A DNA stretch of 64,000 bases from an uncultured Candidatus Nitrosopumilus sp. (GCA_951812655.1 OX638319.1:620001-684000); one strand, 5' to 3'; counted from the first letter of the stretch, positions 770 through 13,835 are shown. Made by a program: numbers and translations. The notes: generated by a model from the sequence alone, not told the origin.

Positions 770-849
770 ATATTTTCATAGATTTTTATCAAATTTCTAC
801 ATTCTGTCTTGTCTCAAAGTTTAAATGGATTTTAACAAGGTAGGTTTCT

Positions 850-924
850 GGGCTCATAGTCCAGGTCGGTTATGACGTCGCCCTTACACGGCGAAGATCC
901 GGGGTTCAAATCCCCGTGGGCCCA
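850..924 (+). tRNA. tRNA-Val (anticodon TAC)
   Basis: A 75-nt cloverleaf can be drawn. The acceptor strands GGGCTCA and TGGGCCC pair with one G-T wobble, the anticodon stem is TCGCC/GGCGA around loop CTTACAC, and the T-arm is CGGGG-TTCAAAT-CCCCG. The anticodon at 885-887 is TAC, so it reads GTA valine codons. No intron is seen and CCA is not encoded. Its last bases, 911-924 plus the next three, recur almost exactly at several later places in the window (see findings). Confidence 0.95.
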
Positions 925-927
925 TTT

Positions 928-955
928 GGACTTGAACCTTCAATGGTTCAAATCC
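928..955 (+). repeat. Hairpin of dispersed family, just after tRNA-Val
   Basis: GGACTTGAACC and GGTTCAAATCC form an imperfect inverted repeat (one C/A mismatch) around the loop TTCAAT, followed by a run of five T. The same hairpin with a different loop recurs at 4600-4627. It could terminate the tRNA transcript or be part of the mobile-looking repeat family described in the findings. Confidence 0.7.
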
Positions 956-1055
956 TTTTTAGAATTTTTTCTCAAAAATGGCTCAAACATCTATGGATTC
1001 TCACTTATGAAAATTACAAAGATCCCTTAAATTAGATACAACTTTACTGATTTCT

Positions 1056-2423
1056 GTGAAATTAGTTTTTCTTGCATTAATTCCTCTCATCTTGTCAATA
1101 GGTATAACTCCTGTTTTATCATTTGATTTTATCCCTGAAGCTGATGCCCTAAAATCAAAAGGAAATTCTCTAACTGAGACTGGTTCCAAAAAAGTTTGTG
1201 GAGATAAATTATGTTCCAAAATGGATTCTAAACATCCCATGAAACATTCTGATATGGAGATGCATTCAGGTTCTATGGATATTCATGCTATGATGGATAG
1301 AATGGACAAAATGCATGAAAAGCATCAACAACACATGATGCAATCTTGGAACTCTATGACAGTAGACGAACAATCACAGATGTATCATAAAATGCAAAAA
1401 ATGATTGAAAAGATGGAATCAATGGATATGGATGAACACATGAAAATGATGTCTAGCATGGGTGAAAAACATGGAGAGAAGAAATCACACGGAACTCATA
1501 TGTCATCAATTCACCCTGAAAAGATGAGAACCTCTGCACCTCTTCCAGAAACGTCAATGGGTCCTCAAATTGATTACTCTAAAGGATATTTGGTTGAAGA
1601 AATCAAAGATGGACTTTACTGGGTAACTGATGGTGCATATCAAGCAATGTTTCTAACAACTGGCCAAGGAGTTATTGTAGTTGATGCACCACCATCAATT
1701 GGAGAAAACTATCTCAAAGCAATTGCAGAAGTGACTGATGAACCAATAACACATGTAATTTACAGCCATACTCACAATGATCATGTTGGAGATATGAGCA
1801 TGTTCCCTGATGATGCTGTTTACATTGCACATCAAGAAGCAGCAGATACTCTTGAAAAAAGAAATGATCCTAACAGACCAATACCAACTATAACGTTTGA
1901 AGATAAATACACCCTAGAAGTTGGAAATCAAAAATTAGAATTAGCATATTATGGTCCAATGCATGAACCTGGAAACATCTTCATCTATGCACCAAATCAA
2001 AAAGTTCTGATGTTAGTTGATGTGATATTTCCTGGATGGACTCCATTCAAGGACTTGGCAATGGCTCAAGATGTTCCAGAATTTCTTGCAGCACATGACA
2101 AAGTTCTAGAATATGACTTTGATACGTACATTGGAGGCCACCTAACACGTTTAGGAACTCCAGAAGATGTACAAATCCAAAAAGAATACTTCCAAGATAT
2201 TCAAACTAGTGCAGCTAAAGCAAACCAAGAAATCTCCTTTATGACAATAGGACAAGAAGTTGGATTTGAGAATCTTTGGTTGGTCTTCCAAATCTATGCA
2301 GATACTATAACACAACAATGTACTGATGAGATTGTTCCAAAATGGATTGACAAACTTGGTGGTGTTGACTTGTTCACCTATGATCACTGTTGGAAAATTT
2401 CAGAAGGTCAAAGAATAGACTAA
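1056..2423 (+). CDS. Secreted MBL-fold metallohydrolase, Met/His-rich
   Basis: This 455-residue protein starts with GTG and a hydrophobic signal sequence (KLVFLALIPLILSIG). After it comes the stretch ADALKSKGNSL, then VCGDKLCS, shared with the protein at 12.8 kb. Residues 50-150 are very rich in Met and His and look metal-binding. The catalytic domain follows, with the metallo-beta-lactamase motif HTHNDH at about residues 238-243, a downstream His in the GPMHEPGN segment and a final GGHLTRLG His. Such folds bind two metal ions and hydrolyse esters, thioesters or lactams outside the cell; the substrate is unknown. The Met/His region suggests copper or another soft metal. The gene stands alone and is followed 15 bp later by the 55-bp repeat element. 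Confidence 0.85.
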   Translation: MKLVFLALIPLILSIGITPVLSFDFIPEADALKSKGNSLTETGSKKVCGDKLCSKMDSKHPMKHSDMEMHSGSMDIHAMMDRMDKMHEKHQQHMMQSWNSMTVDEQSQMYHKMQKMIEKMESMDMDEHMKMMSSMGEKHGEKKSHGTHMSSIHPEKMRTSAPLPETSMGPQIDYSKGYLVEEIKDGLYWVTDGAYQAMFLTTGQGVIVVDAPPSIGENYLKAIAEVTDEPITHVIYSHTHNDHVGDMSMFPDDAVYIAHQEAADTLEKRNDPNRPIPTITFEDKYTLEVGNQKLELAYYGPMHEPGNIFIYAPNQKVLMLVDVIFPGWTPFKDLAMAQDVPEFLAAHDKVLEYDFDTYIGGHLTRLGTPEDVQIQKEYFQDIQTSAAKANQEISFMTIGQEVGFENLWLVFQIYADTITQQCTDEIVPKWIDKLGGVDLFTYDHCWKISEGQRID

Positions 2424-2437
2424 TTTTCACTACTATC

Positions 2438-2492
2438 TGCGTCCATTTTTATCCCCAAAAAGGTGGCTGAGTCCCCGTGGGCCCATTTTTGT
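2438..2492 (+). repeat. Gene-end element copy 1 (tRNA-Val-derived 3' part)
   Basis: It begins CTGCGTCCATTTTTATCCCC and ends in TCCCCGTGGGCCCATTT, 17 bp identical to 911-927 at the end of tRNA-Val. It differs from the copy at 3749-3803 at about three positions. It starts 15 bp after the stop of the preceding gene, in the same orientation. Just downstream is a small CCCAA/TTGGG palindrome at about 2494-2504. Confidence 0.85.
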
Positions 2493-2717
2493 ACCCAATT
2501 TGGGGGCAGGGCCCAAAAAAGAATCATTTTTGATAAATCACTGCAAGAATCTAGGAACCTTTTTGAAAATATGTGATATTGAAATTCTTCCTGGCCCTAT
2601 CACTATGATGACTAAACATCTTCAGCCATCTAATAACACAAATTAGAATTTCTTAAAATAAATTGGATTTGGTACAATACGTAATCCTTAAATTTTAAAA
2701 TCACCTACTTTTGTGAT

Positions 2718-2921
2718 ATGAACAAAACTGTGATGATGTTCTCTATGGTAATTGCTTTGGCTGCAGTGTTTGCTATTGCGTCTCCTATGGGTACAGCGAC
2801 AGCACAAACCTCTGATGCTATGCCTGATGGTGAAGGTGAATACAAGGACGGAGAACACAAAGAAGGAAAGGTTTGCCCAGTCACTGGTAAAACATTACAA
2901 TTCCAAGAGCAGGTTTCTTAG
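2718..2921 (+). CDS. Small secreted protein of unknown function
   Basis: The 67-residue product begins MNKTVMMFSMVIALAAVF, a clear signal peptide with likely cleavage after the TATAQ region. The mature part is about 38 residues, acidic and Gly-rich (DGEGEYKDGEHKEGK), and ends with a single Cys in VCPVTGKTL. I do not recognise a family. A KVCPVTG segment is reminiscent of the metal-site ends of YHS or heme proteins, but this is too short to assign. It lies between two copies of the 55-bp repeat, together with the flavin-binding gene 76 bp downstream, and may share its transcript. Confidence 0.6.
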   Translation: MNKTVMMFSMVIALAAVFAIASPMGTATAQTSDAMPDGEGEYKDGEHKEGKVCPVTGKTLQFQEQVS

Positions 2922-2997
2922 AATATAGTTTAAAAAATTAATAGATAGTTTGAATTACAACGAAAAAAGTTTTCATCTACGGACTGAAAACAAATTC

Positions 2998-3729
2998 ATG
3001 AGATTTGTTCCCAATTCCCAAATAAAATCAAAAGAAAAGATCGTTGAGTTTCTAAAACAAGAAAGAATTGGAAGGATTGCAACCGTTGACGAAAACGGTT
3101 ACAGCTTTATTGCTCCAATGAATTTTGTATATCATAATGACTGCATCTACATTCATGGATTTCCAAGAGGAGAAAAGTATGAAAACATACAAAGAAACGA
3201 TAAATGTGGTTTTGAAGTAGACAAAGAACTTGCATTTTTACCCTCTTACTTCTTTGAACCACCTACAGATGCCTCTCTGACAGATACTCTTTACATTAGT
3301 GTTGTAATCAAAGGAATTGCAAGGACGGTAAATGACGATCAAGAAAAAACAAATGCCTTGAATAAACTAATGGAGAAGAATCAAACTGAAGGAGGTTATC
3401 AAAGATTAAAACCAGATATGCCATCAATAAGAGGGGTCAGACTTACAAAAATAATACCAAACACAATAACTGGCAAATACAAGCTTGGTAAATATTGGAA
3501 GCCTGATGAAAAGAAAAGAATTGCACAAAGAATTCTGGAGAGAGCAGTAAATTTGCCAAAACACACACTGGAGATACTAAATATTACAGGACTAGATGCT
3601 TTGGGTGAAGATATAACAAAACAAATTGCATGGAACTATTCCACAGATCTCATCCAAATGATGGGTTACGAAAATAGAACATCATACCCAAACATATCAC
3701 TTTATGTTAAAGAAGACATAGATTGGTAA
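2998..3729 (+). CDS. Pyridoxamine 5'-phosphate oxidase-like FMN-binding protein
   Basis: The product from ATG 2998 is 243 residues; a TTG at 2950 would add 16. The N-terminal half has the split-barrel pattern of the PNPOx-like/NimA group: a helix (SKEKIVEFLKQERIGRIAT), then strands VDENGYSFIAPMNFVYHND and CIYIHGFPRGEKYENI with the usual G-x-K turn that contacts flavin phosphate. The FEPPTDASLTDTLYISVVIKG strand pair and the KIIPNTITGKYKLG end also fit. The C-terminal 60 residues are an extra helical segment. Such proteins bind FMN, F420 or heme and reduce or sequester small molecules; the ligand here is unknown. A 55-bp repeat copy follows 20 bp after the stop. Confidence 0.75.
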   Translation: MRFVPNSQIKSKEKIVEFLKQERIGRIATVDENGYSFIAPMNFVYHNDCIYIHGFPRGEKYENIQRNDKCGFEVDKELAFLPSYFFEPPTDASLTDTLYISVVIKGIARTVNDDQEKTNALNKLMEKNQTEGGYQRLKPDMPSIRGVRLTKIIPNTITGKYKLGKYWKPDEKKRIAQRILERAVNLPKHTLEILNITGLDALGEDITKQIAWNYSTDLIQMMGYENRTSYPNISLYVKEDIDW

Positions 3730-3748
3730 AGAGAAAAATCACGCCTAA

Positions 3749-3803
3749 CTGCGTCCATTTTTAACCCCAAAAAGGTGGGCGAGTCCCCGTGGGCCCATTT
3801 TTG
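3749..3803 (+). repeat. Gene-end element copy 2
   Basis: It begins CTGCGTCCATTTTTAACCCC and ends with the tRNA-Val-matching TCCCCGTGGGCCCATTT. It starts 20 bp after the stop codon at 3729. Within it TGGGC and GCCCA can pair across a 13-nt loop. About 95% identical to the copy at 2438. Confidence 0.85.
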
Positions 3804-3815
3804 TTACTAAACAAT

Positions 3816-3838
3816 GTTCAGGTCTCTACGGAATGAAC
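3816..3838 (+). repeat. Promoter-side hairpin before the 3885 gene
   Basis: GTTCA and TGAAC form an inverted repeat around a TCTAC centre. The layout (inverted repeat, then about 20 bp, then a CTTTATGA box, then the gene) matches that at 4924-4948 ahead of the next plus-strand unit, including the shared string CTTTATGA.CATCT-like. Confidence 0.5.
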
Positions 3839-3884
3839 TCGTAAGTAGAATTCTTTATGACTATCTGATTTAGAGAAAAAGAAC

Positions 3885-4520
3885 ATGAAAACTAGACTCT
3901 TGATAATTGTTGGAATTGTGGGATTGTCTGTTTTTGGAGTATCTCCTGCATTTGCAGATCTGGAGATACTGGTAAGTCCAGTTATTCCAAGGATTTTACC
4001 TTCAGGCGAACCTACTGGAACCCTGATAATTCGTGACATTCACAACAACCTTGTCTGGGAATCTGCAAAAGATCCTATAATTGGTCTGGATTTTGTTGAG
4101 GGAAATGCATATCATGTAATTGTCAAGAAGACTGATTCTTTCCAGATACTTGGAGACAAGGAGTACGAGTTAGTCCAAACCAAGCAGGTCTTCAAGTCTC
4201 ACGAACCCTATTCATGGAAAGATCTGTGTGTTCCAGGCTACATATCGATTCATGGAACCTGTGTATTTGCTTTCAGATGTAGTGAATATGCATACCCTGG
4301 CAAGTTATGTGAAATTAGTTTTCACAACTCAGACTATCTACGACCGCTATATCAGTCAAAGGTGGGATTCTTGCCAGAAGAAACAATCTGTCTGGAGAAA
4401 CTTCAGTTGCTCATCAGCCATGATGATTTCCCTGCATGTGTAAAGGAATCGTCTGTTGAGAAATTGGTGGAACGAGGATTCATCATTACAAAAAATAATA
4501 ATGATTCCCCTTATGATTAA
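3885..4520 (+). CDS. Secreted protein with ERGF-type motif
   Basis: The 211-residue product starts with MKTRLLIIVGIVGLSVFG, a signal peptide likely cut after AFA. Residues 25-90 are beta-rich (LIIRDIHNNLVWES) and may form an immunoglobulin-like domain. The rest has eight cysteines, including CVPGYISIHGTCVFAFRC, suggesting disulfides. The end, FPACVKESSVEKLVERGF, belongs to a motif also seen in the secreted proteins at 10.2 kb and 35.5 kb, which I know as recurring in Nitrosopumilus-type exported proteins. Function is not known. The gene is flanked on both sides by repeat copies and stands alone. Confidence 0.75.
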   Translation: MKTRLLIIVGIVGLSVFGVSPAFADLEILVSPVIPRILPSGEPTGTLIIRDIHNNLVWESAKDPIIGLDFVEGNAYHVIVKKTDSFQILGDKEYELVQTKQVFKSHEPYSWKDLCVPGYISIHGTCVFAFRCSEYAYPGKLCEISFHNSDYLRPLYQSKVGFLPEETICLEKLQLLISHDDFPACVKESSVEKLVERGFIITKNNNDSPYD

Positions 4521-4547
4521 GATGTAAAAATGAAAGCTATTGCTTAA

Positions 4548-4600
4548 TTGCATCCATTTCTAATCCCAATTTGGTGGATGAGTCCCCCGTGGACCATTTG
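4548..4600 (+). repeat. Gene-end element copy 3 (diverged)
   Basis: It reads TTGCATCCATTTCTAATCCC, then a GGTGGATGAGTCCCCC segment and GTGGACCATTTGG. It starts 28 bp after the stop at 4520. It is diverged from the two best copies but keeps the order of blocks, and it runs directly into the hairpin at 4600 that otherwise follows tRNA-Val. Confidence 0.75.
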
Positions 4601-4627
4601 GACTTGAACCTTTATTGGTTCAAATCC
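4600..4627 (+). repeat. Hairpin identical in stem to the one after tRNA-Val
   Basis: GGACTTGAACC-TTTATT-GGTTCAAATCC. Both arms equal those at 928-955 base for base, while the six-base loop differs. An arm-conserved, loop-variable pair is what is expected if the hairpin structure is selected or copied as a unit. Confidence 0.7.
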
Positions 4628-4679
4628 TTTAAAATTTTATTTTGTACAATTTTGGTTCAAATCTATAAAGATTCGTCAG

Positions 4680-4868
4680 TTATTCTGGAATCTCTTTTCT
4701 TACTTTATTGTATAATACAATCATAATTGCTGTAATTACTCCAAATATCGCCAAAGCCACACCTAATGTAAAACTGTATTCTGAGGCAGGATACATTGAT
4801 GATAAAATCATTTGAATCGGAAGTGCTATTCCTGCAATAATTAGCATAATCAGAATTTTCTTATTCAT
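4680..4868 (-). CDS. Small two-helix membrane protein
   Basis: The 62-residue product has two hydrophobic stretches, ILIMLIIAGIALPIQMIL (residues 5-22) and FTLGVALAIFGVITAIMIVL (33-52), joined by a short polar SSMYPASEY loop, and ends with basic KVRKE. It should sit in the membrane as a hairpin with both ends inside. I do not recognise a family. It is the only minus-strand gene among the short plus-strand units here and may have its own promoter from the 4870-4920 region. Confidence 0.55.
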   Translation of the reverse strand: MNKKILIMLIIAGIALPIQMILSSMYPASEYSFTLGVALAIFGVITAIMIVLYNKVRKEIPE

Positions 4869-4923
4869 GTAGCTAAAATTTTCTGAAACTGTTTAAAATT
4901 TACTTCCTTTTCATACCTAAAAT

Positions 4924-4948
4924 GGTTCAAGCCTCTAGGGATTAAACC
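4924..4948 (+). repeat. Promoter-side hairpin before the 4996 gene
   Basis: GGTTCAAGCC-TCTAG-GGATTAAACC forms an imperfect inverted repeat. A close relative is at 6029-6054. A likely TATA element (ATACTTTATG, 4959-4968) follows before the TTG start at 4996. Confidence 0.6.
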
Positions 4949-4995
4949 TTAAGGCAATATACTTTATGAGCATCTCAAATTTAGTTTGAACAGTA

Positions 4996-5364
4996 TTGAA
5001 TATTTTGAATGTTGTCTTAATCGGAATTATTGTTGTTCTTGGTGCCACTCTGGGAATAGTTGTTTTCATTTTGATCAAACTATTTCATCATATGAATCTC
5101 AACTGCATGACAAACTGCAAGTGGAATATCTTGTTGAGACATTCAAAAAAAAAATATTCAGACTATGACATAATGGAATTTCCTGACTCTAAAGGAGTTC
5201 CTTACAAATATTCTGTAAAAACAAGTTATGCTGATGTTGAATTAATTATAGAAAAAGACAGAGTCCTCTTAAGGGCGTTTGATCTCCATGAAGGAGAACC
5301 GATGTGTATAGTTTCAAATCCCATTCCAAGGGATATTTTGAATAATTGCCCTATCAAATGGTAG
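4996..5364 (+). CDS. Single-pass membrane protein of unknown function
   Basis: The 122-residue product starts with TTG. Residues 3-29 form one transmembrane helix (VVLIGIIVVLGATLGIVVFI). The rest is a soluble domain of about 85 residues with alternating strands (YKYSVKTSYADVELIIEKDRVLLRAFDL) and three scattered cysteines. No family is recognised. The start is supported by a TATA-like box about 30 bp upstream. The next gene begins 4 bp after the stop, so the two are probably co-transcribed. Confidence 0.6.
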   Translation: MNILNVVLIGIIVVLGATLGIVVFILIKLFHHMNLNCMTNCKWNILLRHSKKKYSDYDIMEFPDSKGVPYKYSVKTSYADVELIIEKDRVLLRAFDLHEGEPMCIVSNPIPRDILNNCPIKW

Positions 5365-5368
5365 TAAA

Positions 5369-5578
5369 ATGGACTACAATCTTTTGATCTTTGTTGTGTT
5401 GGGAGGATTGCTGATGACTGCTATAGTCTCAACCGTCCTAAATCATCGTAAAAAAATAAAATCGAACCAAGAGCCATGTCCTTCATGTAGAGGTATTGGA
5501 TTTACGATGACCTATACAAGTAAACCAATTCCTCCTTGCAAAAAATGTCATGGAACAGGATATATCAAAAAGAAATGA
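5369..5578 (+). CDS. Membrane-anchored DnaJ-type zinc-finger protein
   Basis: The 69-residue product has one N-terminal transmembrane helix (LLIFVVLGGLLMTAIVSTVL). After it come two CxxCxGxG-type motifs, CPSCRGIGF and CKKCHGTGY, separated by 12 residues. This is half of a DnaJ central zinc finger and should bind one zinc ion. Such isolated fingers occur in thaumarchaeal membrane proteins; a chaperone role is possible but not shown. It is coupled to the gene before it and is followed 21 bp later by a 55-bp repeat copy. Confidence 0.75.
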   Translation: MDYNLLIFVVLGGLLMTAIVSTVLNHRKKIKSNQEPCPSCRGIGFTMTYTSKPIPPCKKCHGTGYIKKK

Positions 5579-5598
5579 AAATTAGATTTTTCGCCTAT

Positions 5599-5649
5599 CT
5601 GTGTCCATTTCTATCTCCGAAACGGTGGTCTAGTCCCCGTGGGTCCATG
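5599..5649 (+). repeat. Gene-end element copy 4
   Basis: It reads CTGTGTCCATTTCTATCTCC, then a GGTGGTCTAGTCCCCGTGG segment and GTCCATGG. It starts 21 bp after the stop at 5578 and is on the same strand as the gene. Confidence 0.8.
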
Positions 5650-5753
5650 GAATCTCCTTTTCTATCCAAATGATGACTGATTCTAAGGAATTGAACTTGG
5701 ATCCAAATATCTTATTTTATTAACAGGGAAAATTTTTCCAAAAATAATTCATT

Positions 5754-5990
5754 TTGAATCGTAATCTGATAATTGGAATTATTTGCGCTGTAGTAATTGC
5801 AATAATTACAATTATTATTTTGTTAGTTGTTATGCCCTTGTCTCAACCTCCCAATCCTGAAACAATAGAGTGGCTAAATCAGGCAGAATGTGATGAGCTG
5901 CTAAATTGGATTAATGAACGAAAGGGAACTCTGGAAAAATATCAGTCTACGGCAAAAGGTATCTATGATTACCAAGGATGTGGAAACTAA
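5754..5990 (+). CDS. Small membrane-anchored protein
   Basis: The 78-residue product starts with TTG and has one very hydrophobic helix (LIIGIICAVVIAIITIIILL, residues 5-24). The exposed tail, about 45 residues, is helical, with two Cys and a WLNQAECDELLNWINERKG segment. The family is unknown. It lies after repeat copy 4 and before a degenerate copy at about 6005, so it looks like another single-gene unit of the array. Confidence 0.55.
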   Translation: MNRNLIIGIICAVVIAIITIIILLVVMPLSQPPNPETIEWLNQAECDELLNWINERKGTLEKYQSTAKGIYDYQGCGN

Positions 5991-6004
5991 TTTTTATACA
6001 TGTT

Positions 6005-6054
6005 TGCATCTTAATTAATCCCAAAAATGGTTCAAGCCTCTAAGGATTTGAATC
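6005..6054 (+). repeat. Degenerate element plus hairpin
   Basis: GCATCTTAATTAATCCCAA resembles the start of copy 3, and GGTTCAAGCC-TCTAA-GGATTTGAATC (6029-6054) is a second instance of the hairpin at 4924. The tRNA-like middle block is missing. The end overlaps the stop codon of the minus-strand methyltransferase. Confidence 0.5.
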
Positions 6055-6683
6055 TAGGATTTTTTTAGTACTACGAACCATGCTTTTGGATCAGAATCAA
6101 AATTAATTGTTTCAAAAACTGTTGCCTTAATTTTTTCTATGTCAAAATCATTCCTAAAAGTATCTCGAATTTCTTGTTTTGATAATCTATTTGGTCCGTT
6201 TCCGTCAGAAAACTCTTCTTGTTTTATGCTCATACATTTAAGAAAATAAATTCCATTATAATCTAAAATTCGTTTTATTTGTTTTACAAACTTTTTTCTT
6301 TGAAAATCATCAAACAAATGAAAAGTTCCTCTATCGAAAATAAAATTAAAGGCATTAGCAGGAAGATTTGAATTCAAAATATCATCTGTAAGAAAATTAA
6401 TATCATTTGATAGTTTTTTTGCATTCTCTATTGCAGATCCTGAGATATCAGAACCCGTAACATCAAATCCATGTTTTGCCAAGGCCCGTGCTTGTGTCCC
6501 ATCTCCTGTTCCAAGATCCAAAAATCTACCTTTCTTGAGATCTCTTGTTTTAATTTCATTTTCCAAGTCTGAATCTAATTTTTTTGTGAACCAGGGAAGA
6601 TCTCTGATTTGAGTTTCTTTGTAGAGTTTATCCCAATCTTCATCAACTTTTTGTGATTTCATGTGTGTGACAGAACTTTTCAT
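6054..6683 (-). CDS. Class I SAM-dependent methyltransferase
   Basis: The 209-residue product has motif I at about residues 55-63 (FLDLGTGDGTQ), the glycine loop that binds S-adenosylmethionine, and a following acidic residue in VTGSDIS. Post-I motifs NFIFDRGTFHLF and LDYNGIYFLKCMS follow in the right order. The length fits a minimal Rossmann methyltransferase of the tellurite-resistance TehB/thiopurine type; WYKETQIRDLPW-like features at residues 20-33 support that group. The acceptor is unknown. It is transcribed towards the small membrane gene and has no operon partner. Confidence 0.8.
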   Translation of the reverse strand: MKSSVTHMKSQKVDEDWDKLYKETQIRDLPWFTKKLDSDLENEIKTRDLKKGRFLDLGTGDGTQARALAKHGFDVTGSDISGSAIENAKKLSNDINFLTDDILNSNLPANAFNFIFDRGTFHLFDDFQRKKFVKQIKRILDYNGIYFLKCMSIKQEEFSDGNGPNRLSKQEIRDTFRNDFDIEKIKATVFETINFDSDPKAWFVVLKKS

Positions 6684-6726
6684 TCAATAAAGGTTCTGTA
6701 GATAGAGCATGCAAGATTATCTCAAC

Positions 6727-6781
6727 TATGCCCCTACGAGGACTCACCTATCTTTTTGGGGTTAAAAATGGACGCAGATGC
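6727..6781 (-). repeat. Gene-end element copy 5 (reverse orientation)
   Basis: On the minus strand it reads CATCTGCGTCCATTTTTAAC, then CCCAAAAAGATAGGTGAG and TCCTCGTAGGGGCAT. It lies about 100 bp beyond the stop of the minus-strand phosphoesterase, again at a gene end and in the gene's own direction. Its tRNA-like part carries several changes. Confidence 0.8.
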
Positions 6782-6880
6782 GTGTGGAAATTTTTTCTAG
6801 AGTTTATCTAATCTGCCTTATTTTAGAGATATTTGGTTAGGCATTTAGATTTTACACAAATTCTCAAATAAATCCAGATT

Positions 6881-7715
6881 TCATTTAGATATTCCAAAAA
6901 GGATTGCTTTTTTCAAATCATGTTGAATTAGACCAAAATGTGGCATTGATATGCCTGATCCATAGTGTCCTTGTGGCCCTCCAAGACCGAGTCTGACTAA
7001 ATAACTAGTGTCAGTTTCTACTGTAATCTCCATTTTTTCTACTGTGTGTTCTCCAATTTTTTCTGTTTGAACCTCAGTTTCTGATAATATATCGCGTATT
7101 CCGTCTTTGTTGCATGCAAGTACAGCTTCTTTATGTTGGTGTCCGCACAAAATTATTGGGTTTTTTGTTTTTGTTTTTGTCTCTGAGAATGCAGAAATTG
7201 CACTGTAGTGATATCCATAACGACTGAAAAATTCCCCACCATCCGATAATCTCTGCCAAGTCTTTTGATATAGCCACTCATTTCCAGACTTCTCTGACAT
7301 GATTTTTTTTTGGATCCAATGGACCCCCATGGACACATACCAGTCCATTCTTTTTATCAACATCCTCCTGGATGCCAAACGTTCCATCACTGTTTTTTGT
7401 AAAAAAATCTAATTCTTTTTCTTCCAAGACCCGATGCTTGGCAATGCTTTCAAGTGAGCTGCCCTCAAGATTTTTTCCATAAAGGTATGACTCATCATGA
7501 TTTCCCATGACTGAAATCATCGGATAATTTTCAGACAACTCGTTCATTTTTTCTAATACTTGTTTTGGATTGGTTCCCCTCTCCAGCAAGTCTCCTAAAT
7601 TGATGATCCTGGAATATTTTCCATATCTTTTAGTAAAATGAACAGAATTTGTTAGATTGAGAATCGTATTAAGTGCTGAAAAGTCAGCATGAATATCCGA
7701 AAAGATCAGATCCAC
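6881..7715 (-). pseudogene. Calcineurin-like phosphoesterase, frameshifted
   Basis: Two overlapping frames together make one metallophosphoesterase. The first (7715 down to 7278) carries FSDIHADFSAL, NLGDLLERG, MGNHDESYL and VCVHGG, four of the usual metal-binding blocks. The second frame, entered near 7300, carries the last block LCGHQHKE and the C-terminal strands to 6881. The join falls in a run of nine A (minus strand) at about 7303-7311; eight A would restore one frame of about 277 residues. The intact enzyme would be a two-metal phosphatase related to PP2A/ApaH-like proteins. The break may be a true mutation, a sequencing error in the homopolymer, or slippage that still makes some full-length protein. 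Confidence 0.75.
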
Positions 7716-7831
7716 TTTGTTTCTGTTACTTGCATTTTCAAATTTTAATTTAATTTAATCGGTTCAAGTTCTTGTATATTGTTTGATTTGAAGATATTCT
7801 CTGACAACAAAGTACATGTTTCATCTAGCTA

Positions 7832-7840
7832 AAAATATAT
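7832..7840 (+). promoter_or_regulatory. Likely TATA box for the flavin reductase gene
   Basis: AAAATATAT lies about 26-30 bp before the ATG at 7863. Archaeal TATA boxes sit about 26 bp before the transcript start, so the mRNA would begin at or next to this ATG and be leaderless. This is why 7863 is preferred over the GTG at 7854. Confidence 0.45.
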
Positions 7841-7862
7841 CTTAATTCCTTATGTGATAAGG

Positions 7863-8447
7863 ATGAGTATGAAAATTTTAGGAGTAGCCTCCAGTATGCG
7901 CGAATCATCCTACAGTACACGAGTCTTAAAATTAACATTGGAAAAGGCAGAGAAAAGAGATGCGGAAACCAAGATGTTAAGCCTACGCGAATTACAATTG
8001 CCACTGTATCATCCTGAACAAAACAGATCCGTTGAACTTGACAAAGTCACGGAATATGTAAAATGGGCCGATGCCTTTGTTCTGGCCTCTCCTGATTATC
8101 ACGGGTCAATGTCTGGGGTAATGAAAAATTTTCTTGATTTCTTTTGGTCTGAATTTGCGGGAAAGACATTTGGATACATTTGTGCCTCTCATGAAAAAGG
8201 CCTTACTGTGATGGATCAGATGAGAACTGCTGTCAGACAATGCTATGGATGGAGTATGCCATATGGAATTTCAGTAAATTCTGATCAAGATTTTGACAAC
8301 TCAGGAAATCTGGCCAATGAAAATATCCTGTCCCGTGTTGAAACTATTGCCAGGGATTTGGTAGTATATGGCAGTTTTATTGCAGATCAATACAAAAAAG
8401 ATCTTAACAGCAAAGAATCAAACACGTTTGCTGCTCGTTATAGATAA
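7863..8447 (+). CDS. NADPH-dependent FMN reductase family protein
   Basis: The 194-residue product is a flavodoxin-like oxidoreductase. It opens with KILGVASSMRESSYSTR, the phosphate-binding loop for FMN. ASPDYHGSMSGVMKNFLDFF (about residues 80-99) is the hallmark second FMN segment (SPxYxGSxxGxLKNxxD). AGKTFGYICAS and MRTAVRQCYGWSMP follow as in the SsuE/ArsH-like group. It should reduce flavins, quinones or metals with NAD(P)H in the cytosol. The start is set by the TATA position; GTG 7854 is the alternative. A weak relic of the array element (ACATCCATTTGTAACCC) follows at about 8470. Confidence 0.85.
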   Translation: MSMKILGVASSMRESSYSTRVLKLTLEKAEKRDAETKMLSLRELQLPLYHPEQNRSVELDKVTEYVKWADAFVLASPDYHGSMSGVMKNFLDFFWSEFAGKTFGYICASHEKGLTVMDQMRTAVRQCYGWSMPYGISVNSDQDFDNSGNLANENILSRVETIARDLVVYGSFIADQYKKDLNSKESNTFAARYR

Positions 8448-8553
8448 TACGTCTAAACTATTGAATTTTACATCCATTTGTAACCCAAATTGTAATTTTT
8501 TCTAATTCTGATTTTATAATTAAAAAATTTCAATCAAATTAATTTTTAAAATC

Positions 8554-9054
8554 TCAAGCGTTTTTAGAATCTTTTTTGTATAGTTTGGTAAAGTAAACTC
8601 CATTGTTAACAGATAGAACAAACAAAGTTGCTGCAATCAGATGGGAGATTATCGATGCCTGATAAGGTTCTTGTCCTATGCTCAAAAAATGATAATGTAA
8701 AAACCATCTTGATGAAAAATAAATGATTTCAGCCATTCCTACCGAAGTAATGACCTTGATGAAGTCTTTTTGAATATTTTCTTTGTTTGCAATCCCTTCT
8801 TTTGTAATGTATTTTTCTTTGTTGTCTCTATAATAGAGAATACCAAAGACAAGATAGTAAATTGCATAACTTACTATGATGGTCAGAGTAGCATTGATGT
8901 ATTCTGTTTGCCCCTTGATGGATTGCGAAAACAAAGCCGAAACAAACATTGCAGAAGCAATCGAAGCAATCATGTTTCGATTTAATCTGACATAATCCAT
9001 GTGGTTTCCAATAACTGACTTTATTCTAGACCGCACATTTTTTGCAAAATCCAT
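8554..9054 (-). CDS. Four-helix membrane protein, paralogue of the 24.98 kb gene
   Basis: The 166-residue product has four predicted membrane helices (MIASIASAMFVSALFS, LTIIVSYAIYYLVFGILYY, VGMAEIIYFSSRWFLHYHFL and ATLFVLSVNNGVYF). A basic loop (RDNKEKYITKEGIANKENIQKD) lies between helices 2 and 3. It aligns along its length with the protein at 24976-25419, sharing SxGMAExxY-xxRW and the FLxI-xxxxYxASIxS segment. The family is unknown to me and appears to be a thaumarchaeal integral membrane family. The upstream methyltransferase ends only 12 bp before this gene starts, so they are probably one transcript. Confidence 0.7.
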   Translation of the reverse strand: MDFAKNVRSRIKSVIGNHMDYVRLNRNMIASIASAMFVSALFSQSIKGQTEYINATLTIIVSYAIYYLVFGILYYRDNKEKYITKEGIANKENIQKDFIKVITSVGMAEIIYFSSRWFLHYHFLSIGQEPYQASIISHLIAATLFVLSVNNGVYFTKLYKKDSKNA

Positions 9055-12758: not shown

Positions 12759-13835
12759 ATGTTTTTTATGAATATTCTTATTTTTGCTGTCATTCCTCTC
12801 ATTTTATCACTTGGAATCATGCCTGCTTTACAATACGAAATAATTTCTAATGCTGAAGCAGTAAAATCTAAAGGAAATTCTTTGACTGAAACCAATTCCA
12901 AGAATGTCTGTGGGGATAAACTCTGTTCAGAAATCTCTGGAAATCAGATTGTGCAAAAACCCATGATGCCAATATCTCAAAAAGAATTGTTTTCATCTGC
13001 AGAGAGATATACGCTGGAAGGCCCTGAAATTGATCCTGAAAAAGGATATGCTGTAATCAAAATTGGAGATGGTCTCTATTGGCTAACTGATGGAGTATAC
13101 CAACTCATGTTCGTGACCACTGGAGAAGGTGTAATTTTAGTCGATGCCCCTATGGGAATGGGAGCAAAAATCCAACAAGCAATTTCAGAAGTAACGTCAC
13201 AGAAAGTTACTCATTTCATTTATTCCCATATTCACAAAGATCATGTTGGTTCTGCTGGATTGCTTCCCCAAGATGTGACATACATTTCACATACTGATAC
13301 CGCAAAACATCTTGTGATGAAAAATGATCCACAAAGACCCATACCCACTGTTACTTTTGATGATGAGTATGTCCTGACAGTAGGTGATCAAACTCTGGAA
13401 CTGTCTTATTTGGGACCATTTCATTCTAAAGGAGACATTGTGATTTATTCTCCCGCACACAAAGTCGTAATGGCTGTTGACTTGTTCCATCCAAACGCAG
13501 CACCATTCCAATTCATGGGAATCACGAGAGATGTCGGTGAACATCTTGCAGTTCATGATAAGCTCTTGGAGATGGATTGGAAAATTATTGTTTCTGGACA
13601 TGAACCCATCTTGGGAACTCCTGAACATCTAAAATTCAACAAAGATTTCACATTGGCAGTATTGGATAATGCCATTATGGCGATACAGACAACTCAACCT
13701 AGTGCAAATTACTTTGATGATTTGGCAAACAAATGTGCTGAATTAACTTTGGAACAATACTCTGATCTCAAAGACATAGAGGTTTACCCAAATGAAAATT
13801 GCGTAACCATGATTTTCTATGCGTTGATTGATTAA
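12759..13835 (+). CDS. Secreted MBL-fold metallohydrolase
   Basis: From ATG 12759 the product is 358 residues. It has a signal sequence (MNILIFAVIPLILSLG), then AVKSKGNSLTETNSKNVC and GDKLCS, nearly the same as in the 1056-2423 protein. The hydrolase domain has the zinc motif HIHKDH (about residues 147-152), PFHSKGDI with the next His, and SGHEPILGTPEH near the end. It lacks the Met/His-rich insert of its paralogue, so the two differ in metal supply more than in fold. The extracellular substrate is unknown. The surrounding genes are transport proteins, with no shared operon. Confidence 0.85.
   Translation: MFFMNILIFAVIPLILSLGIMPALQYEIISNAEAVKSKGNSLTETNSKNVCGDKLCSEISGNQIVQKPMMPISQKELFSSAERYTLEGPEIDPEKGYAVIKIGDGLYWLTDGVYQLMFVTTGEGVILVDAPMGMGAKIQQAISEVTSQKVTHFIYSHIHKDHVGSAGLLPQDVTYISHTDTAKHLVMKNDPQRPIPTVTFDDEYVLTVGDQTLELSYLGPFHSKGDIVIYSPAHKVVMAVDLFHPNAAPFQFMGITRDVGEHLAVHDKLLEMDWKIIVSGHEPILGTPEHLKFNKDFTLAVLDNAIMAIQTTQPSANYFDDLANKCAELTLEQYSDLKDIEVYPNENCVTMIFYALID

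Follow-up and report, generated by a model that had tools for sequence, protein, structure and literature searches.

The 64,000-nucleotide stretch analysed here (the window) comprises positions 620001-684000 of a single-contig archaeal genome of 1.67 Mb. Close to its start, a tRNA-Val(TAC) gene is followed by a series of genes between which copies of an element of about 60 bp are placed (Table 1). Five copies lie at 2424-6790, four on the plus strand and one on the minus strand. Each plus copy stands behind a co-directional stop codon, at 2423, 3729, 4520 and 5578, and the gene that runs in the direction of the minus copy ends at 6881, about 90 bp away. The 17-mer TCCCCGTGGGCCCATTT, located at the tRNA end (911-927), recurs exactly at 2472-2488 and 3784-3800 and inexactly at 5634 (14/17); with three mismatches allowed it has four matches including the tRNA itself, compared with 0.04 expected by chance. 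Across the whole 1.67-Mb genome, a sequence model of the full site recovers the five window copies at 44-72 bits and three others weakly at 21-25 bits. The nine top matches of a left-arm model in the 64-kb window all fall inside 2433-8489; beyond the five copies they include a partial second arm at 2483-2503 and three degenerate copies, located at 4906-4926, 6001-6031 and 8469-8489. A second core type, GGTTCAAGCCTCTARGGATT, is seen behind degenerate arms at 4919-4943 and 6024-6048, and clear copies of it were found only in the window array. These data bear out the preliminary description of the locus, which had reported five copies of a ~55-bp element past stop codons in gene direction, an exact tRNA-Val 3' end in the two best copies, and a reverse copy (site 5) behind its own reversed gene.

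Table 1. Features of the tRNA-Val(TAC) locus, in window coordinates.
Feature	Position	Strand	Basis
tRNA-Val(TAC), insertion target	849-925	+	ARAGORN
Recombination core AATCCCCGTGGGCCCAT, final 17 nt of tRNA-Val	909-925	+	Displaced flank of relatives resumes 16-18 nt before tRNA 3' end
tRNA-Val 3' flank, start of unit 1	926-958	+	Copy found after site 3
Unit 1 gene, secreted metallo-beta-lactamase-fold protein	1056-2423	+	PF00753, E 4.6e-14
attR-like site 1 (left arm and core)	2424-2489	+	71.8 bits; exact core copy
Unit 2 small ORF, 67 aa	2718-2921	+	ORF call
Unit 2 gene, pyridoxamine 5'-phosphate oxidase-like protein	2950-3729	+	PF12900, E 1e-18
attR-like site 2	3736-3801	+	70.2 bits
Unit 3 gene, secreted protein, 211 aa	3885-4520	+	ORF call and domain search
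attR-like site 3, diverged core, then tRNA-Val 3' flank copy	4535-4600	+	44.5 bits
Degenerate site, different core GGTTCAAGCCTCTAGGGATT	4906-4943	+	Left-arm model match 4906-4926
Unit genes, 122 aa and 69 aa zinc-ribbon-like	4996-5578	+	ORF and domain searches
attR-like site 4	5586-5651	+	57.4 bits
Unit gene, 78 aa	5754-5990	+	ORF call
Degenerate site, different core GGTTCAAGCCTCTAAGGATT	6001-6048	+	Left-arm model match 6001-6031
Methyltransferase gene	6054-6683	-	Domain search
Site 5, inverted, degenerate core	6725-6790	-	52.9 bits
Inverted unit, metallophosphoesterase	6881-7715	-	PF00149; overlapping ORFs 7278-7715 and 6881-7390
Unit gene, NADPH-dependent FMN reductase	7854-8447	+	PF03358, E 6.8e-29
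Degenerate left arm, distal array end	8469-8489	+	Left-arm model
Right border gene, 166 aa, outside array	8554-9054	-	Abuts tRNA-Val in G058

The 3' flank of the tRNA-Val gene (922-958) is repeated after site 3 (4594-4630) with 94.6% identity over 37 bp, and a stretch related to this 3' flank also follows a site in the tRNA-Val array of relative G020. The unit 2 gene has its closest homolog in G066, where the shared unit likewise ends at a site; the unit 3 gene has a partial homolog within the tRNA-Val island of G074; and the G015 homolog of the methyltransferase carries a weak site (L131, 15.9 bits) 8 bp past its stop codon. The metallophosphoesterase gene, split over two overlapping frames, is apparently frameshifted and broken. 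A paralog of the unit 1 protein is encoded outside the array at 12768-13709 (50-62% identical in two segments), and unit 2 has two paralogs elsewhere in the genome. Searched against a defence-system library, the unit genes gave one partial match only, to a methyltransferase domain, which was not read as a sign of defence.

Comparison with relatives, each species represented by one genome, reveals where the DNA behind the tRNA has been exchanged. The gene upstream of tRNA-Val is kept in all 20 relatives first compared, and the downstream content varies. In pairwise alignments, similarity returns at AATCCCCGTGGGCCCAT, 16-18 nt ahead of the tRNA 3' end. Exact insertions were delimited between G016 and G015 (5.2 kb), G010 and G016 (6.6 kb), G083 and G007 (5.5 kb), G001 and G037 (11.7 kb), and G040 and both G006 and G027 (14.8 kb); the inserts are bounded on either side by direct repeats of the tRNA 3' end, and relatives have empty sites. 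Three of these genomes form a nested series with breakpoints at the core, in which single units are present or absent: G016 reads tRNA-A-B-C, G015 reads tRNA-B-C, and G010, without A and B, reads tRNA-C. Unit B measures 1.4 kb and holds two ORFs, one of them small; the larger one we take, from reading its sequence, to encode a universal-stress-type protein. The ORFs of A and B include no integrase match and no recognisable replication genes. In G058 a gap of 28 bp separates tRNA-Val from the start of the window's border gene (8557-9054); in the window the distance is 7.6 kb, and the whole window array is therefore an insertion relative to G058. Since identity between these two genomes is low (75% upstream and 68% within the border gene), the comparison of the window genome (G000) with G058 gives no exact breakpoint. 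The proposal that insertions at tRNA-Val leave copies of the tRNA end thus agrees with empty and occupied sites in relatives, which match at the final 17 nt of the tRNA.

The inserted DNA is built from units of genes and a terminal site. Downstream of tRNA-Val, 43 sites lie on the strand of the tRNA and three on the opposite strand; two of the latter are the mirrored right arm described below and the third is the inverted copy of the window. The median site spacing is 1.6 kb and many units measure 0.6-2 kb, although some hold several genes. Among 72 sites, 44% have their start no more than 60 bp from a co-directional stop codon, compared with 13% of random intergenic points, figures that are approximate because the gene calls are crude. 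When the DNA in front of sites was compared across genomes, homology reached a site in both partners for 22 pairs, which are not independent because many involve one repetitive-protein unit in six genomes. Past the site nothing similar was found in 21 of the 22, the exception being the close pair G015/G016. The recurrent unit, with a repetitive GYDxxG protein (L039 4912-5793), occurs in the arrays of six genomes and always ends at a site. A unit at tRNA-Val in G074 is also present in a distant array of G010, and G074 shares a unit with G142, a member of another genus, at 86.6%. The order of two adjacent units, which end at 4726 and 5807 in G036, is reversed in G040 (first 12649, next 11081, on the minus strand). 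The suggestion that genes are acquired as units with a common 3' site therefore accords with the same gene-plus-site unit in different species, followed by unrelated DNA. The converse pattern, an element behind core genes at constant positions with no gain or loss of units, was looked for and not found.

The 58 copies from relatives and the window have TATCTGCGTCCATTTTTATCCCCAAAATGGTGGCTGAATCCCCGTGG in common. In most tRNA-Val arrays GCCCAT comes next; at other places the continuation is often different. In the site of about 60 bp, a conserved arm, TATCTGCGTCCATTTTTATCCCCAAAATGG, is joined to a core that corresponds to the final 17 nt of tRNA-Val. In many relatives, an inverted version of the arm, for example CCCTATATTGGGACTAAAATAGGACGCAC, stands directly after the tRNA-Val 3' end, and a model built from these tRNA-side sequences together with one internal-core sequence picks up the element copies on the opposite strand, albeit weakly. 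Both arms around one core are found at tandem junctions (L047 12757-12651, L042 2965-3051 and L091 4316-4209). As judged from sequence, the element is the far, attR-like half of a putative attachment site, whose near half is the inverted arm after the tRNA, and this arrangement of arms and core is the predicted attL, attR and attP anatomy of a tyrosine recombinase. The 5' part of the element had been called non-tRNA sequence in the preliminary description; this holds, with the addition that it forms an attachment-site arm mirrored on the tRNA side in relatives. A search for a conserved RNA or single-stranded DNA fold of the site gave no consensus pairs among the 58 copies.

A candidate enzyme is encoded beside the target in six relatives. 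A tyrosine recombinase gene begins 43 bp past tRNA-Val(TAC) in G055, G001, G045 and G032; G075 has a homolog near the tRNA, and G040 has two copies in tandem, one by the tRNA and the other by an internal core. The integrases are complete in G001 and G055 and truncated in G045 and G075. Homologs in other genomes follow tRNA-Val(CAC), tRNA-Arg(TCT) and tRNA-Arg(GCG), and three viral contigs encode distant integrases that are 44-48% identical. No site with an exact pattern was detected in viral contigs. Matches in Pfam and NCBIfam are weak, the latter being to XerA_Arch only, at 35 bits compared with a cut-off of 220. Because a sequence search of the PDB with the integrase gave no relevant match, structures were compared instead: the predicted integrase (mean pLDDT 82) matches XerA, Cre and XerH in fold. 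Residues R172, R292, H315 and Y337 are invariant across 13 homologs. Neither PF00589 nor the integrase of the relatives has a match in the window genome, and at 17 of 22 tRNA-Val loci with sites there is no integrase match within the stretch examined. The earlier statement that no integrase is visible thus stands for the window genome, but not for its relatives.

Searched for in the whole genome, the element gives the five strong window copies; within the family, 89 of 250 genomes carry it, and these belong to 8 of 22 genera. Many copies in relatives lie away from tRNA-Val and some form arrays there, and therefore tRNA-Val is not the sole home of these sites. In most cases no tRNA that might anchor such arrays was found within 15-20 kb, and in several relatives neither a tRNA nor an integrase lies within that distance. 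In L143 (9780-16660), L145 and L152, all away from tRNA-Val, sites often run on as GTGGAGTTGAACC or GTGAAGTTGAAC; this continuation is sometimes followed by TTGCGGTGT, perhaps another target site.

Genome comparison establishes that insertion is precise at the core, that units accrete beside the tRNA and that shared units end at the site; it equally shows addition, loss and reordering of whole packets in relatives. We consider it very likely that integrated gene cassettes form an array at tRNA-Val(TAC), of which the window holds an integrase-less, partly decayed example. As the comparison shows, a unit comprises host-type genes and a terminal arm-plus-core site of about 60 bp; a new unit inserts exactly at the core beside the tRNA and displaces older units outward, each insertion leaving one arm-plus-core copy per unit. 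Units are met singly, and their order, locus and host species vary. The recombinase family encoded 43 bp after tRNA-Val in relatives probably performs this reaction. The enzyme may attach to the pair of inverted arms on a circular unit (arm-core-inverted arm) and join the unit core to the tRNA core by recombination. Since an integrase is not recognisable in most units, we infer that the enzyme works mostly in trans. In the window units no recognisable right arm was found. The window array is taken as an integrase-less, partly decayed relic because no integrase was recognised in this genome. Its cores have diverged and its phosphoesterase gene is broken as well, so that the array is probably either inactive or dependent on an incoming enzyme.

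The main competing explanation is that the units are ordinary integrative elements, plasmids or viruses, that were stacked at tRNA-Val and have lost most genes and the integrase by decay. Such a history would fit the complete integrases at the tRNA in G001 and G055, the tandem copies in G040 and the truncated ones in G045 and G075, the related integrases on the three viral contigs and the degenerate parts of the window array, and tandem integration with loss of the integrase is known in archaea (PMC8371274). However, insertions A and B (G016, G015, G010) have neither an integrase match nor recognisable replication genes, small gene-plus-site units are intact in many genomes and differ in order, and the median spacing is 1.6 kb. 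We therefore regard decayed elements as an unlikely source of the array, albeit one to be taken seriously, and individual units may have arisen by decay from larger elements.

Readings of the element as a terminator or a bare repeat are contradicted by the insertion data. The simpler view offered in the preliminary description, a 3' regulatory repeat or transcription terminator kept behind genes, draws on the frequent proximity of sites to stop codons and on the T-rich arm. Yet the gene content between tRNA-Val and the border is wholly different among relatives, insertions start and end at the core, the orientation of sites is fixed relative to the tRNA, and the 58 copies have no conserved folded structure in common, all of which renders a terminator extremely improbable. 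Dispersed copies away from tRNA-Val in relatives might be expected of a small transposable repeat (MITE- or SINE-like) that captured its end from tRNA-Val and inserts behind genes. What moves, however, is a gene plus site and not the site alone; the inserts measure 1.4-14.8 kb, not 60 bp, and have the 17-bp core at both ends; and the mirrored arm lies next to the tRNA and the integrase gene. A transposable repeat is thus highly improbable as well.

Among known systems, tRNA-anchored additive islands and integrons stand closest to a cassette array at tRNA-Val. Examples of additive flexible genomic islands located at tRNA genes are Alteromonas fGI1 (PMC4119200) and fGI-2 of 'Ca. Methylopumilus', which contains repeats of the last 20 nt of tRNA-Lys (PMC10872708). 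In common with these, cassettes are added at a conserved tRNA target, the array is marked by tRNA-end repeats and its content varies among relatives; a fixed position by the tRNA and cassettes present in some relatives and absent from others are both observed. In contrast to the bacterial islands, the Nitrosopumilus array is archaeal and its units often hold one gene; a conserved 60-bp site with mirrored arms closes every unit, and the family of the cognate integrase has been identified. Integrons of archaea are characterised by IntI and attC (PMC9668308). Integrons and CALINs resemble the array in that single-gene units have a 3' site in common, insertion takes place at a fixed point and the units often lack an integrase; to judge from the shared units and the reversed order in genome sequences, shuffling of order is a probable further parallel. 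However, the array is anchored at a tRNA gene and has a 17-bp tRNA end as its core, and because the integrase is not IntI-like (a weak XerA_Arch match only in NCBIfam) and the 58 site copies show no folded attC structure, the array is not an integron.

Thaumarchaeal cryptic integrated elements often have a tRNA 3' end as their target, and the median length of their att sites is 17 bp; they are defined by carrying an integrase and span 2.6-98 kb, with a median of 17 kb (PMC6563490). Tyrosine integrases, tRNA 3' targets and cargo such as UspA and plastocyanin are common to both, whereas most units here are without an integrase and many measure 0.6-2 kb. Tycheposons of Prochlorococcus are likewise tRNA-anchored islands of marine plankton with a tyrosine recombinase and metabolic cargo. 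Their definition also calls for a replication or transfer module and for particular target tRNAs; in the description given in PMC10872708 they are elements of 4-200 kb and not arrays of single genes that each end in the same site. In the open-access literature we found no description of arrays such as the one reported here.

According to the survey of thaumarchaeal elements, integron counterparts may still be discovered in this group (PMC6563490), and the Nitrosopumilus-type array is a concrete candidate for one. The chances are about even, in our judgement, that ammonia-oxidising archaea own an integron-independent system of gene-cassette capture, in which tRNA-linked recombinases would move single host-type genes in trans, by means of a 60-bp site, between loci, species and genera. 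The relatives of Nitrosopumilus have small genomes and strongly different accessory genes. A cassette site with its recombinase would account for the gain and exchange of single metabolic and stress genes among them, and a defined site would allow mobile genes to be found by the site alone.
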